From Thomasclavelia spiroformis DSM 1552 (GTDB taxonomy: Bacteria > Bacillota_I > Bacilli_A > Erysipelotrichales > Coprobacillaceae), in assembly GCF_025149465.1 (NCBI RefSeq), contig NZ_CP102275.1, positions 1,550,001-1,614,000 on the forward strand: 64,000 nucleotides of DNA, given 5' to 3'. Position numbers and translations under genes: made by a program. The notes under the pieces were generated by a model. That model saw nothing but the letters and a program-made list of their open reading frames with translations. It made no database searches and was not told the origin of the DNA. Of the stretch, positions 23,476-29,666 are shown piece after piece; position 1 is the stretch's first letter; each line of letters opens with the position of its first letter.

Positions 23476-24043
23476 AAATCATGTCCCCCTTATCTAAAAA
23501 TATTTCACTGTCTTTATAATAAAGCATTGTAAGTTCAAAACTTGTATAACTCTGTCGAGAAACCCCATTAATTCTAATATGAGCATTTTTAAAACATTGT
23601 CCACTAATTCTTGAATTAGGTGTCATCCCTTCAACAAAGCCACTTACACGCCCCATAACATACAATTTACCACTAAAACGAACAATTGCCCCAGGATTAA
23701 TTTGACCAATAATTAATGCATCCTGATCAATTTTCAATACTTCTCCAGAATGAATTGTTTTATTAATTATTTTAATTTTATTTTTAGGTTCTTTTTTAAT
23801 CATATTGATTCCATCAAATAACAATACTTGTTTTTCAAACAACAAATCCAATAAACATGTTAATTCACGAACACTCAAAATTCGACTTTTAAAATCAAAA
23901 AAAGCCTTTGGATAAAAACCATTACTTTTAAATAATGGTGAATCCAAAAGACTTTCTAGTTCTTTTATTAAATTATTAAATTCTTGACTATCATCTAAAA
24001 CAAACACTAGATGACCACTAACTCCTTTTACTTTGATATGCAT
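23468..24043 (-). CDS. minC: Septum site-determining protein MinC
   Basis: FtsZ assembly inhibitor. The C-terminal beta-helix domain is recognisable in HSGEVLKIDQDALIIGQINPGA, LYVMGRVSGF and AHIRINGVSRQSY. The N-terminal domain is divergent but of normal length (191 aa in total). The start overlaps mreD by 26 bp with GAGGGA just upstream. Operon mreC-mreD-minC-minD as in bacilli. Confidence 0.9.
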   Translation of the reverse strand: MHIKVKGVSGHLVFVLDDSQEFNNLIKELESLLDSPLFKSNGFYPKAFFDFKSRILSVRELTCLLDLLFEKQVLLFDGINMIKKEPKNKIKIINKTIHSGEVLKIDQDALIIGQINPGAIVRFSGKLYVMGRVSGFVEGMTPNSRISGQCFKNAHIRINGVSRQSYTSFELTMLYYKDSEIFLDKGDMIYV

Positions 24044-24551
24044 TGACTTTTCCCTCGAATCCTAATTTTTTATGGATAAAATACACTGGAGCAATCAATA
24101 CTAAATTAAATAACACCGTTGGTAACAAGCGATTTTTCAAAAAGATAACAATTGAAAGCTGCGTAATATTAGTTATCCACATCAACCAATATAACACAAC
24201 TTCTTGCACGATTATTGTCACAATTACGGCGATAAACATCTCTAATAACGTAAAAGTTGCTAATTTTGTATACTTTTTTCCTAAAAAAGCATACATACAA
24301 TACAATAAAACATAAATCAATAAACTATTTGCATAAACGATAGCATAATACAAACCAGATACCGTTGCAAATATGTAACGATGTTCATTTCCAATCGTAT
24401 TATTTAAAAGTGTAAACATCATTAAACTAATATAAGGAATAATCGTAATTCCTGATTTATCAAAATTAAATGGAAGATAATAGCTTATTACACTATCAAT
24501 AATAAAACTAAGTGCCATCACTAAATAATAACGATATAGTTTTTTATTCAT
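24018..24551 (-). CDS. mreD: Rod shape-determining protein MreD
   Basis: Polytopic membrane protein of the elongasome, with five to six hydrophobic helices and few charged residues (177 aa from the chosen start). AGAGGA seven bases before the ATG at 24551 favours that start over the one at 24581. It overlaps mreC by 8 bp and minC by 26 bp. MreD is poorly conserved, so the identification leans on topology and gene order. Confidence 0.85.
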   Translation of the reverse strand: MNKKLYRYYLVMALSFIIDSVISYYLPFNFDKSGITIIPYISLMMFTLLNNTIGNEHRYIFATVSGLYYAIVYANSLLIYVLLYCMYAFLGKKYTKLATFTLLEMFIAVIVTIIVQEVVLYWLMWITNITQLSIVIFLKNRLLPTVLFNLVLIAPVYFIHKKLGFEGKVNAYQSKRS

Positions 24552-25398
24552 TATTATTTCCTCTAAAAACAACCGAAACATATGTTAAATCACTAAAATC
24601 TTCAGCCGGTTTAACTTTAAGCGTCTTCGTTGTTCCATCACTAGAAACATCCATCCCCTCAGCAACACCGATATAGATTCCTTTAGGGGCTTTTTGATCT
24701 CCACCTAATCCCGAAGTAATAACATTAGCATTAGGCTCAAGTTTATCAATATTGCTTAATAATGTTACTTCATAACACTTACTTTCTACATCATAACCTT
24801 TTAATAAACCATATGCATTTTGATCACCATTCATAATTTGTACTGGTAAATCAGAAACTGGTTTTTCAGCTGTCAATAATTGAACCGTAGAACTTACTTC
24901 TGTAACAGAAGTAACTTTTCCAATCATTCCTTTAGAAGCAACAACAACCATATCTTCCTTTACACCTGCCATACTTCCTAAATCAATGGTAATTTCATTT
25001 GTCCAATTACTTGCATCACGTGAAATAACAGTAGCTGTTTTAACATTATAATCAGTTGTAAGTTCCTTTAAATCTAAAGCCTTTTTTAAATCATCTATTT
25101 CATTAGATAAAACATTTGTATTAACTTCCACACTAGCGTAAGCTGCCAATTGTTCTCTTAAAATCTTATTTTCATCATAAACATCTTTTAATTCGTTATA
25201 TTCATTAAATAAATTACTTATAAACTCAATTGGTTTTTTAATTACATAGTACTCTACTACAGCTACTGTATCACTTATCATTCTTTCAATTCCCCACTGT
25301 GTTCGTGAAAAAATTAATGAAATACTTGAAAAAACAATAATTGTAACTGTAATAATTAAAATGATCTTTCTATTTCTTTGCTTCTTTCGATTATTCAA
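24544..25398 (-). CDS. mreC: Rod shape-determining protein MreC (TTG start)
   Basis: Periplasm-facing scaffold linking MreB filaments to peptidoglycan synthases. N-terminal membrane helix (KIILIITVTIIVFSSISLIF), coiled coil (NELKDVYDENKILREQLAAY) and two beta-barrel domains with VISRDASNWTNEITIDLG and VITSGLGGDQKAPKGIYIG; 284 aa. The start is TTG at 25398 after GAGGTGATAA; the next Met is residue 40, inside the extracytoplasmic part, so TTG initiation is needed. mreB is not adjacent. Confidence 0.93.
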   Translation of the reverse strand: MNNRKKQRNRKIILIITVTIIVFSSISLIFSRTQWGIERMISDTVAVVEYYVIKKPIEFISNLFNEYNELKDVYDENKILREQLAAYASVEVNTNVLSNEIDDLKKALDLKELTTDYNVKTATVISRDASNWTNEITIDLGSMAGVKEDMVVVASKGMIGKVTSVTEVSSTVQLLTAEKPVSDLPVQIMNGDQNAYGLLKGYDVESKCYEVTLLSNIDKLEPNANVITSGLGGDQKAPKGIYIGVAEGMDVSSDGTTKTLKVKPAEDFSDLTYVSVVFRGNNNE

Positions 25399-25456: not shown

Positions 25457-26134
25457 TTAGACTTCAATAATTTCTTTTGATGCAAAACTATAAAATTTAT
25501 TTCTACCAATAATTAAATGATCAACAATTTCAATTTCTAATTCCTCAGCCATCCGATACAATCGTTTAGTTATTTCAATATCTTCAAAAGAGGGCTTTGG
25601 ATTACCTGAGGGATGGTTATGAATCACCATAATCCTACTACTACCACAAATTAATGCTTCTTTAAATATTTCTCTACCACTAATAATTGAAATATTATTA
25701 CTACCAATAAAAACCGTTTTTTCTTTCATTACTTCTAATTTAGAATTTAAACATAAAATGATAACATGTTCTTGCTGTTCAAACATCAGCTTATCTTTAA
25801 CTAAATAATATCCATCTTTAGGTTCTTTAATAACCGTCTGTTCCTTTTGAATTCCTTTGATTCTTTTTGTAAGCTCGATTACAGCAAGGATACTAATTGC
25901 TTTAGCCTTTTTTATTCCATTGATAGAAACTAGCTGATGATATGTGACATCTTTTAAATATGACAAACCGCCCACTTCATTAATAACCCGCTGTGCTAAC
26001 TGTAATGCTGATTCTTTTTTACTACCCGTTCGTAATATCAATGCTAATAATTCATTATTAGTTAAACTATCAATCCCATAATAATAGGCTTTTTCACGAG
26101 GGCGTTCTTTTTCAGGATAATTTTTTATTTTCAT
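25457..26134 (-). CDS. radC: RadC family protein (JAMM domain)
   Basis: 225-aa protein with an N-terminal helix-hairpin-helix region (LTNNELLALILRTGSK, LVSINGIKKAKAISILAV) and a C-terminal JAMM metal site (VIHNHPSGNPKPSFEDIEITKRL). It is conserved in bacteria; a direct repair role is doubtful and its reaction is unknown. Overlaps the upstream SPOR gene by ATGA, so the two are co-translated. In B. subtilis maf lies between spoIIB and radC; here it is absent. Confidence 0.92.
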   Translation of the reverse strand: MKIKNYPEKERPREKAYYYGIDSLTNNELLALILRTGSKKESALQLAQRVINEVGGLSYLKDVTYHQLVSINGIKKAKAISILAVIELTKRIKGIQKEQTVIKEPKDGYYLVKDKLMFEQQEHVIILCLNSKLEVMKEKTVFIGSNNISIISGREIFKEALICGSSRIMVIHNHPSGNPKPSFEDIEITKRLYRMAEELEIEIVDHLIIGRNKFYSFASKEIIEV

Positions 26135-26517
26135 GAGCTCAATTCTTTAATAATTGCTTCATAATTTTGTTGTTCAATATCATCTTTTAGTTCATTAGAA
26201 AATTTAACTTGTTTAATTACACATGTAATACCTTGTTCACTAATACCATTACCCATAGTCTTTGCCTCCTGTTCATTTAAAAATACTCCAGCTATAACTA
26301 CAAAGTTATTATCTTTTTGATATTTGTAATTTGGTTGTTTTAAATTTGTTAACTGATTAATCATCTCATTGGCATTTTCTTCTTGCTTATATATTCCTAC
26401 TTGAACTATGTAAGCATCAATTTCACTTTCAAGTGATGAAAAAACTTTTAAATAAAATCCACCAAATAATATCGACAACCCAACTGCACTAACTATTGCT
26501 AATCTAATTATCTTCAT
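26131..26517 (-). CDS. SPOR-domain membrane protein, SpoIIB-like
   Basis: 128-aa protein with a single N-terminal membrane helix (LAIVSAVGLSILFGGFYL) and a SPOR-like domain (DAYIVQVGIYKQEENANEMINQL ... FVVIAGVFLNEQEAKTM). SPOR domains bind denuded peptidoglycan at septa. Its place before radC equals that of spoIIB, a septal peptidoglycan protein used in engulfment, but it is much shorter than B. subtilis SpoIIB. TGGAGGT precedes the ATG. Function is inferred from domain and synteny. Confidence 0.75.
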   Translation of the reverse strand: MKIIRLAIVSAVGLSILFGGFYLKVFSSLESEIDAYIVQVGIYKQEENANEMINQLTNLKQPNYKYQKDNNFVVIAGVFLNEQEAKTMGNGISEQGITCVIKQVKFSNELKDDIEQQNYEAIIKELSS

Positions 26518-26554: not shown

Positions 26555-26584
26555 AAATATGAAAGGCTAATAGCCTTTCATATT
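26555..26584 (-). terminator. Terminator of the GG-leader peptide genes
   Basis: ATATGAAAGGCTA / TAGCCTTTCATAT, a 13-bp perfect stem overlapping the last stop codon, followed on the minus strand by TTTTATAATT. With the valS terminator upstream it bounds a two-gene unit. Confidence 0.7.
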
Positions 26585-26726
26585 AGCGATTTCGTGTAAT
26601 AGAATAATGAGTTTTAATTAATCTTGCAGTATTTAATCCCGCAACAACAGCAGCTATAGTAATAATAAATGGTAAAGCAAATCCACCATTAGTTTCTTTT
26701 TGTATACTGATTGGTAATTCTTTCAT
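26583..26726 (-). CDS. Small double-glycine-leader peptide 2 (bacteriocin-like)
   Basis: 47-aa peptide. Residues 1-15 (MKELPISIQKETNGG) resemble a double-glycine leader. The presumed cargo, residues 16-47, has a hydrophobic stretch (FALPFIITIAAVVAGL) followed by a basic tail (ARLIKTHYSITRNR). The leader aligns residue by residue with that of the upstream gene (M-x-E-L-x-x-S-x-Q-x-E-x-x-G-G). GGAGAT lies 4 bases before the ATG, inside the end of the upstream gene. No C39-peptidase exporter or immunity gene is adjacent. Could be one half of a two-peptide bacteriocin or a signalling peptide; unproven. Confidence 0.65.
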   Translation of the reverse strand: MKELPISIQKETNGGFALPFIITIAAVVAGLNTARLIKTHYSITRNR

Positions 26727-26727
26727 A

Positions 26728-26886
26728 CTATCTCCATTCAATTGAAATAATTCTTGGAATTGAAATTCTTCCTGCTGAAGATCTTACCATTTTATAAACC
26801 GCCGCCCCAATTACAACACAAAAAACTACTGTTCCTATTCCACCGCCAGAAATCTCCATTTGACTACTTAATTGCAATTCATTCAT
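26728..26886 (-). CDS. Small double-glycine-leader peptide 1 (bacteriocin-like)
   Basis: 52-aa peptide. Residues 1-15 (MNELQLSSQMEISGG) form a leader like LSxxEMxxISGG of class II bacteriocins. The cargo has a hydrophobic helix (GIGTVVFCVVIGAAVYKMV) and a basic C-terminal part (RSSAGRISIPRIISIEWR). AAGGAGG lies 13 bases before the ATG, longer than ideal; the only other in-frame codon start is blocked by a TGA. It occupies the folC/comC position between valS and the SPOR gene. Export partner not in the window. Confidence 0.65.
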   Translation of the reverse strand: MNELQLSSQMEISGGGIGTVVFCVVIGAAVYKMVRSSAGRISIPRIISIEWR

Positions 26887-26982
26887 TCTCGTCTTTCATC
26901 CTCCTTTTATTTCAAGGCCACACATCCACTAAACCTCTTATTATCTTTTACAATTAAAATAATTTTTTTACTACAAAAATAT

Positions 26983-27009
26983 AAAAAAACCATTAACAAA
27001 TGTTAATGG
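26983..27009 (-). terminator. Terminator of valS
   Basis: CCATTAACA / TGTTAATGG stem followed on the minus strand by seven Ts. It separates valS from the small peptide genes. Confidence 0.82.
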
Positions 27010-27018
27010 CTTAATAAA

Positions 27019-29643
27019 TTACATCGTATCTAATTTTTCTTTAACTGCGTCATATTTTGATTGATAATCAGCTAATTTCTTTCTTTCTAATTCAACTTTT
27101 TCTTTTGGTGCTTTAGAAACAAATTTTTCATTAGCTAACATATTTTGACAACGTTTAATTTCTCCTTCAAGTTTACTTAATTGAGCTTGTAACTTTTCTT
27201 TTTCAGCATCTTTATCAATATAATCACCTAATTCTATTAATAAAGAATTACCACCTTTAATTGTAATATTTGCTACTTCACCAGTTGCTTTTAAATTGTA
27301 ACCTGAACAAATTGCATTACATAATTTTTTAATATATGGTAAACATTGGTCCATTAAACTTTCTAACTGACTATCTTTTGTATCAATAATATATGCAACT
27401 TCAATTGCATTTTTAATTGTATATTGACTTCTAATTTCACGAATTCCTTTAACAATATCAATTAAATATGTAAATTGATCATTAATTTGTTCATCATTAA
27501 AATCTTCATTTACTTCTGGCCATGAAGCAATACAAATAGATTCTTCAAGATGTGGAATTGCTTGGAAAATTTCCTCAGTTACAAATGGCATAAATGGATG
27601 TAACATCTTTACAATAGCATTTAAAACATATACTAAAGTATTCAAACTTGCTTGTTTTTCAACTTCATTTTCACTATTTAAATGAACTTTAGTTAATTCA
27701 ATATACCAAGAACAAAAATCATCCCAGATAAATTTATATAACTCTGTTCCAACATTAACAAATTCAAATTTATCCATATTAATATCTACTTCTCTAATCA
27801 CTTCATTTAAGCGATTTAAAATCCACTTATCACATAAATTTAAATTGTCAAATGTTAAATCTTCATACTTCATCGATTCATCAATATTCATTAAAACAAA
27901 TCTAGCGCTGTTCCAAATTTTATTAATAAAATTCCATGAAGATTCTAGCTTTTCAGGAATATAGCGTAAATCCATTCCTGGTGCCGAATTTGTTGTTAAA
28001 AAGAATCTAAGCGTATCAGCTCCATATTCATCAATAACATCCATTGGATCAACACCATTACCTAAAGACTTAGACATTTTACGTCCTTGTTCATCACGAA
28101 TCAAACCATGAATCAATACATTTTCAAATGGTCTTTGATCAGTAAAGTGTAATGATTGGAAAATCATTCTACTTACCCAGAAAAAGATAATATCATAACC
28201 AGTTACTAAAGTATTAGTTGGGAAATAGCGTTTAAATAACTCACTATCTTCATTTGGCCAACCTAAAGTTGAAAATGGCCAAAGTGCACTAGAGAACCAA
28301 GTATCTAAAACATCTTCATCTTGTTTCCAATTTTCAATATCTTTAGGAGGTTGTTTACCTACATAAACTTCTCCAGTTTCTTTATGATACCAAGCAGGTA
28401 CTTGATGACCCCACCATAATTGACGAGAAATACACCAATCTTCAATATTTTCCATCCATTGATTGAATGTTTTTTCAAAACGTTCTGGAACAAAATTTAC
28501 TTTAGAATCTTTTAATTGATTATCTAGAGCCATCTTAGCTAGAGGTTTCATTTTTACAAACCATTGTTTAGATAAATATGGTTCAACAATAGCATTACTT
28601 CTTTCAGAATGTCCAACTTGATGCATATGTTTTTCAATATGATCAACGATTCCATTAGCTTCAAAATCAGCAACTAACGCTTTACGACATTCAAAACGAT
28701 CCATTCCTTGATATTTATTTGCTAATTCATTCATTGTTCCATCATCATTCATACAAATTGGCATATCTAAATTATATTTTTTAGCTAAAGCAAAGTCATT
28801 AGGATCATGAGCTGGCGTACATTTCATAACTGCTGTTCCAAATGACATATCAATATAACTATCAGCCATAATTGGTAAAGGTTCTCCATTAGCTGGATTA
28901 ATTGCCTTTTTACCTACTAAATGCGTATATCTTGTATCATCAGGGTGAACAAAAATTGCTTGATCGGCAAACATTGTTTCAGGACGGGTTGTTGCAATGA
29001 CTAATTCTTCATCACTATCAACAATTTTATATTTGAAATAATACATTGCCCCTTCAATTTCTTTATGAATAACTTCAATATTACTTAATGCCGTACGTTG
29101 CATGGGATCCCAGTTAATGATTCTTTTACCTTGGTAAATCAATCCCTCATTATATAATTTAACAAATACTTCTTTAACCGCTTCACTTAATCCTTCATCT
29201 AAAGTAAAACGTTCTTTAGAATAATCAAGTGATAAACCTAATTTTTCCCATTGACTACGAATAATTGAGGCATATTCTTCTTTCCAAGACCATGCTTTTT
29301 TTAAAAATCCTTCTCTTCCTAAATCATAACGAGAAACACCTTCTTCTTGCATTCTAGCCTCTACTTTTGCTTGAGTGGCAATTCCAGCATGATCCATTCC
29401 TGGAAGCCATAAAGCATCATATCCTTGCATTCTTTTATAGCGAATGATCATATCCTGTAATGTAGTATCCCAAGCATGACCTAAATGTAATTTACCAGTT
29501 ACATTAGGTGGGGGAATAACGATAGAATATGGTTTTTTGCTTGTATCACCTGCTTCAAAATATTTTTTTTCAATCCACTTACGATATTTTCCTTCTTCTA
29601 CTTTATGATGATTATACTTTGGTTCTAATTGCTTTTTCATCAT
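27019..29643 (-). CDS. valS: Valyl-tRNA synthetase
   Basis: Class I aminoacyl-tRNA synthetase charging tRNA-Val and editing threonine. HIGH motif in [16 protein letters not shown], the CP1 editing domain, the KMSKS signature [10 protein letters not shown], the anticodon-binding domain and a C-terminal coiled-coil arm. The longest frame starts at 29655, but GGAGG lies six bases before the ATG at 29643. Controlled by a T-box leader; gene order spoVID-ysxE-valS as in B. subtilis. Confidence 0.97.
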
Positions 29644-29666
29644 TTTTACCTCCATATTTTTAATAA

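Follow-up and report, generated by a model that had tools for sequence, protein, structure and literature searches.

A small gene lying between valS and radC, named pepA here, is a core gene of the bacterial family to which Thomasclavelia spiroformis DSM 1552 belongs, and its product is probably a small membrane protein of the producer's own envelope, made as a precursor whose double-glycine (GG) leader would be removed by a C39 peptidase dedicated to it. The gene was analysed in the window, i.e., the whole stretch of 64,000 nucleotides (contig NZ_CP102275.1, positions 1,550,001 to 1,614,000), in which positions are counted from the first letter. GG peptides are almost automatically taken for bacteriocins or pheromones; PepA is instead a core gene, and puts an unannotated small membrane protein beside radC, mreC and mreD in bacteria that are common in the gut. 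No earlier description of pepA or of its coupling to C39 was found in the open-access literature. The elements of the locus are the following, all on the minus strand:

27019..29655, minus strand: valS, the gene regularly found upstream of pepA in family members
26987..27012, minus strand: valS terminator, bounding the unit on the pepA side
26978..27006, minus strand: promoter-like site TTAACA-17-TATATT for pepA-pepB, a consensus match only
26728..26886, minus strand: pepA, an ORF with an ATG start encoding a 52-aa precursor, MNELQLSSQMEISGG/GIGTVVFC...
26842..26886, minus strand: GG leader of pepA, MNELQLSSQMEISGG, 15 residues, recognised by residue conservation in relatives
26731..26841, minus strand: predicted mature part of pepA, GIGTVVFCVVIGAAVYKMVRSSAGRISIPRIISIEWR, 37 residues, recognised by its homologues next to radC, with or without a leader, in Erysipelotrichales and further Bacilli
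26583..26726, minus strand: pepB, an ORF with an ATG start encoding a 47-aa GG-leader peptide, MKELPISIQKETNGG/FALPFI...
26682..26726, minus strand: GG leader of pepB, MKELPISIQKETNGG, from the ORF reading and a GG-leader pattern scan
26556..26584, minus strand: intrinsic terminator 3' of pepB, a hairpin with a 13-bp stem
26131..26517, minus strand: SPOR-domain gene (PF05036), the first gene downstream of the unit
25457..26134, minus strand: radC, the gene that most regularly adjoins pepA homologues, leaderless forms included
24544..25398, minus strand: mreC, after radC
24018..24581, minus strand: mreD, after radC with mreC (the pair spans 24018..25398)

The two genes are in tandem, with the start of pepB located 1 nt past the stop of pepA and a ribosome-binding site (AAAGGAGGATG) upstream of pepA, and in each product a GG leader precedes a hydrophobic helix and a basic tail. 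A preliminary description of this DNA had recognised both genes as an isolated unit between the valS terminator and a 13-bp hairpin of its own, with no C39 exporter or immunity gene adjacent. All of this was borne out: the genes are real and have true GG leaders, the valS terminator and the 13-bp hairpin were found, and no immunity protein or exporter of the kind expected of a class IIb system occurs within the unit, whose neighbours are valS and SPOR/radC. Neither product has an above-cut-off match in Pfam or NCBIfam. A match of PepA to an inovirus coat family of Pfam (E 0.007, below the cut-off) was put down to similar composition and not to kinship. The mature part consists of a membrane helix followed by the KMVRSSAGRISIPRIISIEWR tail, and a structure prediction of low to medium confidence (pLDDT 67) places helices at residues 4-11, 15-36 and 45-51, the first of them within the leader and followed by a break. 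The mean charge is -2 for the leader and +4 for the flank on the C-terminal side.

Searching by sequence alone, we found pepA in 34 of the 37 family genomes, the one studied here included; matches in the other genomes have E values from 5e-7 to 2e-23. The genera that carry it include Thomasclavelia, Faecalibacillus, Massilimicrobiota, Beduini, Kandleria and Sharpea, a family that we take to be Coprobacillaceae, and the gene order valS-pepA-SPOR/radC-mreCD is fixed in the neighbourhoods read, from about 20 of its genera. Within the genus, substitutions in pepA fall mostly on the third codon position (92/48/196 at positions 1/2/3) and dN/dS ranges from 0.05 to 0.18; a chance ORF is ruled out by this conservation and codon bias. 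pepB is present in all nine genomes of the genus and limited to it, with a dN/dS of 0.35-0.40, most genera having PepA alone. PepB evolves faster than PepA and would be a second substrate, specific to the genus, of the C39 peptidase proposed to cut PepA. At the valS locus, two to four tandem PepA paralogues occur in genus g7 (L036, L037 and L039) and in g15 (L045), and short GG-leader peptides of unrelated mature sequence adjoin pepA in a pepB-like manner in two genomes (L034:8780-9036 in G010 and L031:9001-9135 in G020).

GG leaders are defined here by a length of 15-18 residues, hydrophobic residues at -12, -7 and -4, and GG, GA or GS at -2 and -1. The PepA leader agrees with this definition, although position -7 (Q in 17 and M in 5 of 22 relatives) departs from the hydrophobic expectation. 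Among these 22 relatives, L-12 and G-2 are found in all, G-1 in 21, and I, V or L at -4 in 20. The longer pattern originally said to be shared by the two leaders is not conserved as written, the fixed residues being L-12, G-2, G-1 and mostly I/V/L-4, a set that corresponds to the canonical signature of GG leaders. In the PepA of one relative (G011, L044:7926-8165), GE replaces GG at the predicted cleavage site, although a full PCAT is encoded in this genome.

A profile of the mature part without its leader (A1), searched across the order, retrieved homologues across Erysipelotrichales, and in the sister family these are located directly upstream of radC-mreC. The conserved segment corresponds to the membrane helix and the tail YK..S..GR.SIP.....EW. 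Three forms are present in the sister family: proteins with a leader ending in GG (e.g., G197, G260, G263, G057 and G275), proteins with a degenerate leader ending in GK, GL or GR (G273, G276, G280, G282, G284 and G286), and leaderless proteins of 39-42 residues that retain the mature tail, such as MTTSSLLLYVAIVAGIAAIYKLLTSGRGRVSIPGIEMTWGK of G053. The broader profile A3 reached other families of the class and found the same gene in Bacilli families with small genomes, mostly in the order valS-pep-radC, where the constant neighbour is radC, not mreC. Many of these small-genome leaders end in PG or VG instead of GG, which, like the GK, GL and GR endings in Erysipelotrichales, counts against a C39-cut precursor. 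Leaders such as MRKLSDNELNEVEGG agree with the classical consensus of GG leaders, and the bacteriocin leader family TIGR01847 scores above its cut-off for a distant homologue, not for PepA itself. Since leaders of the small-genome families fit this consensus and pass TIGR01847, having a leader is probably the ancestral state, and the leaderless forms would be derived.

The preliminary description had supposed a remote transporter. In the genome, which is a single contig, one full PCAT of 687 aa was indeed found, directly upstream of ybeY-cdd-era (G000:C1:801075-803135). It combines a C39 domain, an ABC membrane domain and an NBD (PF03412, PF00664 and PF00005), with an intact catalytic triad (Cys22, His99 and Asp115; PF03412 E 1.8e-37), a Walker A motif GDTGAGKS at 512, a signature LSSGQ at 610 and a Walker B motif VLILDE at 630. 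Among solved structures, PCAT1 (4ry2, E 4e-71) is the closest to it, and the C39 profile matches the solved peptidase domains of LahT, PCAT1 and ComA. A second C39 match in the genome (C1:1984749) fits C39_2 (PF13529) better and was regarded as unrelated. When the whole genome was scanned for GG-leader starts, nine matches were obtained, of which pepA and pepB were the sole free-standing small ORFs; the scan used one DNA start pattern and would miss other starts. Full PCATs are found throughout the family, and the C39 gene lies directly upstream of ybeY in 19 of the 19 family neighbourhoods read, the same place that it occupies in other families. The PCAT gene of G034 is split over contigs. 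In-frame stops were noted in the PCAT of G014 and, by a search flag, in that of G029.

Outside the family, the ybeY locus carries reduced forms of this protein. In leader-bearing genomes of the sister family, solo C39 ORFs of about 111-141 aa are located immediately upstream of ybeY, while in the small-genome families C39 is fused to a membrane domain (C39-TMD) and Walker A is absent in all seven proteins checked. G648 presents a C39 with about one helix and G623 a solo C39. The motor-less C39-TMD proteins and the solo C39s show, at the level of sequence, that the ATPase can be dispensed with in these other lineages. Between the PCAT C39 domains and the solo C39s, only the catalytic Cys, His and Asp are invariant. 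The activity of the solo C39s is not certain, as most of these ORFs begin right before the catalytic Cys and are devoid of the upstream Gln. The isolated peptidase domain LahT150 has been characterised as a GG protease by itself (PMC6363468). The series from full PCAT through C39-TMD and solo C39 to no peptidase represents a natural experiment on the roles of leader, peptidase and motor.

Where both loci could be read, the leader and the C39 gene were always found together or were both missing: 65 genomes have a leader and C39, 20 have neither, and the two mixed classes (leader without C39, leaderless with C39) are empty. The 65 comprise 33 PCATs, 17 C39-TMD proteins, 1 C39 with one helix and 14 solo C39s. 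The Fisher value of this tally, 7e-20, should not be read literally, since the genomes share ancestry. On the best RadC tree, the change between leader and leaderless forms needs only three steps, and one when considering strongly supported branches, too few for an independent-pairs test on this tree to reach significance. Therefore, the co-occurrence is strong but not final. Several apparent exceptions disappeared on closer reading: G282 has a solo C39 missed by Pfam, G260, G261 and G263 have divergent solo C39s, and G425 has a C39-TMD. Seven genomes, mostly fragmented assemblies, stand outside the tally (G603, G332, G262, G279, G287, G288 and G009); in G603 and G332, which bear a leader, no C39 was located and the ybeY loci were not found. 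In G016, a member of the family, pepA is absent and a 540-aa PCAT remnant is located upstream of ybeY (L193:1486-3108), in which Walker A is missing and Ala replaces the catalytic Cys. Sister-family genomes also encode other PCATs, of about 720-760 aa (G212:C11:306300, G200:C1:1105485 (genus g54)), and in g54 these coexist with leaderless PepA; hence, having a PCAT at another site is not tied to having the leader. The two loci are nearly linked in G658 (L248), with C39-TMD and ybeY about 2 kb from the peptide gene and radC.

Three other interpretations have to be weighed against that of an envelope protein matured by C39. Streptococci use such PCAT/GG pairs for signalling, and PepA could likewise be a family-wide exported pheromone that the PCAT cuts and secretes and that a receptor encoded elsewhere reads. 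The canonical GG leader, the presence of full PCATs throughout the family and the lack of an immunity gene agree with this idea. Nevertheless, pheromones usually diverge fast and are located with their own kinase or regulator, whereas the PepA tail is conserved across families and no receptor gene occurs in the neighbourhoods of pepA or of the C39 locus. In addition, the lineages with a motor-less or solo C39 and those with leaderless proteins have no evident secretion route, and we consider a pheromone unlikely.

More doubtful still is the interpretation of PepA as an ordinary small membrane protein, whose GG-like leader would be a mere N-terminus while the C39 protein at ybeY serves other substrates. 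A helix with a negative N-side and a positive C-side could insert by itself, the leader was lost independently only one to three times, and other GG leaders in the genome were sought with one start pattern. However, the leader has the canonical docking residues and spacing, and TIGR01847 is passed by a distant homologue; the 65:0 versus 0:20 co-occurrence and the joint decay in G016 also speak against this interpretation, and that one-pattern scan returned no further free-standing GG-leader ORF. Finally, the preliminary description put forward a class IIb bacteriocin of two peptides that a remote transporter would export, for which two tandem GG-leader peptides with hydrophobic helices and the score of a distant PepA homologue on TIGR03949 (class IIb lactobin/cerein; 20.7 bits, cut-off 21.5) can be invoked. 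This is very unlikely, given that pepA belongs to the core genome and is matched by a dedicated leader peptidase whose gene has a fixed site of its own, and is further opposed by the purifying selection on PepA and the absence of an immunity gene, by the lack of co-conservation of the two peptides (PepA near-universal and slow-evolving, PepB genus-limited), by the genera with PepA alone, which are the majority, or with two to four paralogues of it, and by the existence of leaderless and motor-less lineages. From that description, the GG-leader peptides with a remote C39 are retained and the bacteriocin is not.

Our results are best explained by PepA acting as an envelope protein of the producer. 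The leader would dock on the C39 domain, in T. spiroformis that of the PCAT upstream of ybeY, with L-12 and I/V-4 sitting in the groove as in LahT (PMC6363468), and a cut after the double glycine is predicted to free the 37-residue PepA. Until then, the leader probably keeps the hydrophobic protein inactive. Mature PepA is predicted to be a single-span protein, formed by the helix and the positively charged tail G-R-x-S-I-P-x(5)-E-W, and an N-out/C-in topology is expected from the charge of this tail under the positive-inside rule. It would work in the producer's own envelope and not as a released bacteriocin; as lineages without the motor or without the leader still conserve the mature part, PepA most likely acts in the producer's membrane. 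The leaderless homologues, together with the lineages that have an ATPase-less C39 protein, also point to an activity of PepA that does not depend on leaving the cell. Nevertheless, the PCAT of T. spiroformis has an intact ATPase, which makes true export possible in the family, and it may additionally move the peptide across the membrane. Other lineages would use C39 with a membrane domain or C39 alone, or would have lost leader and peptidase and make the mature form directly. A role of PepA in envelope growth or division, near RadC and MreCD, is a guess from the neighbourhood. In a broader sense, the chances seem about even that C39 and the GG leader represent, across several Bacilli families, a maturation system for a core small envelope membrane protein that does not solely serve export, persists without the ABC motor or without motor and membrane domain, and ends when leader and peptidase are lost together.

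Among known systems, MAM of Faecalibacterium comes closest in kind, a GG-leader envelope protein that is core to its group, co-occurs strictly with a PCAT and is not a bacteriocin (PMC12184118). Like PepA, it combines core status, a GG leader and PCAT pairing; its leader has I or V at -12, M at -7 and V at -4. In contrast to PepA, MAM is about 135 aa long, in most species its gene adjoins that of the PCAT, and it is not known to have leaderless or motor-less counterparts, both of which exist for PepA. A PCAT that serves the biology of the producer and not competition is also known from HetC of Nostoc, which has a developmental role; HetC differs by a cyclic-nucleotide-binding domain at its N-terminus and by a function that depends on the ATPase (PMC10986499).

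FapD and FilB (NF058616 and NF050078) resemble the solo C39s in having C39 without an ABC transporter, and their profiles weakly match the solo and C39-TMD proteins, but they come from the amyloid and pilus systems of different bacteria, and the proteins studied here score far too low to reach their cut-offs. The best NCBIfam match of the PCAT, the solo and the C39-TMD proteins is the Mbov_0121 family peptidase ABC transporter of mycoplasmas (NF045998), which the PCAT matches with 327 bits (the cut-off of 500 bits is not reached).

The systems of class II bacteriocins and GG pheromones, including PCAT1, ComA and LahT, share with PepA and its PCAT the leader signature, the C39 triad and the full PCAT architecture. 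They differ in that here peptide and transporter are unlinked core genes with no immunity gene or regulator, and in that, among PepA relatives, the peptidase may be a C39-TMD or solo protein and the leader may be absent. The unlinked paired loci, the series of peptidase reduction and the leaderless homologues set the present case apart from the known systems. An ordinary bacteriocin-type pair is likely present in G055, whose PCAT (L074:4614-7308) is located away from ybeY, right after a 126-aa GG-leader-like protein.
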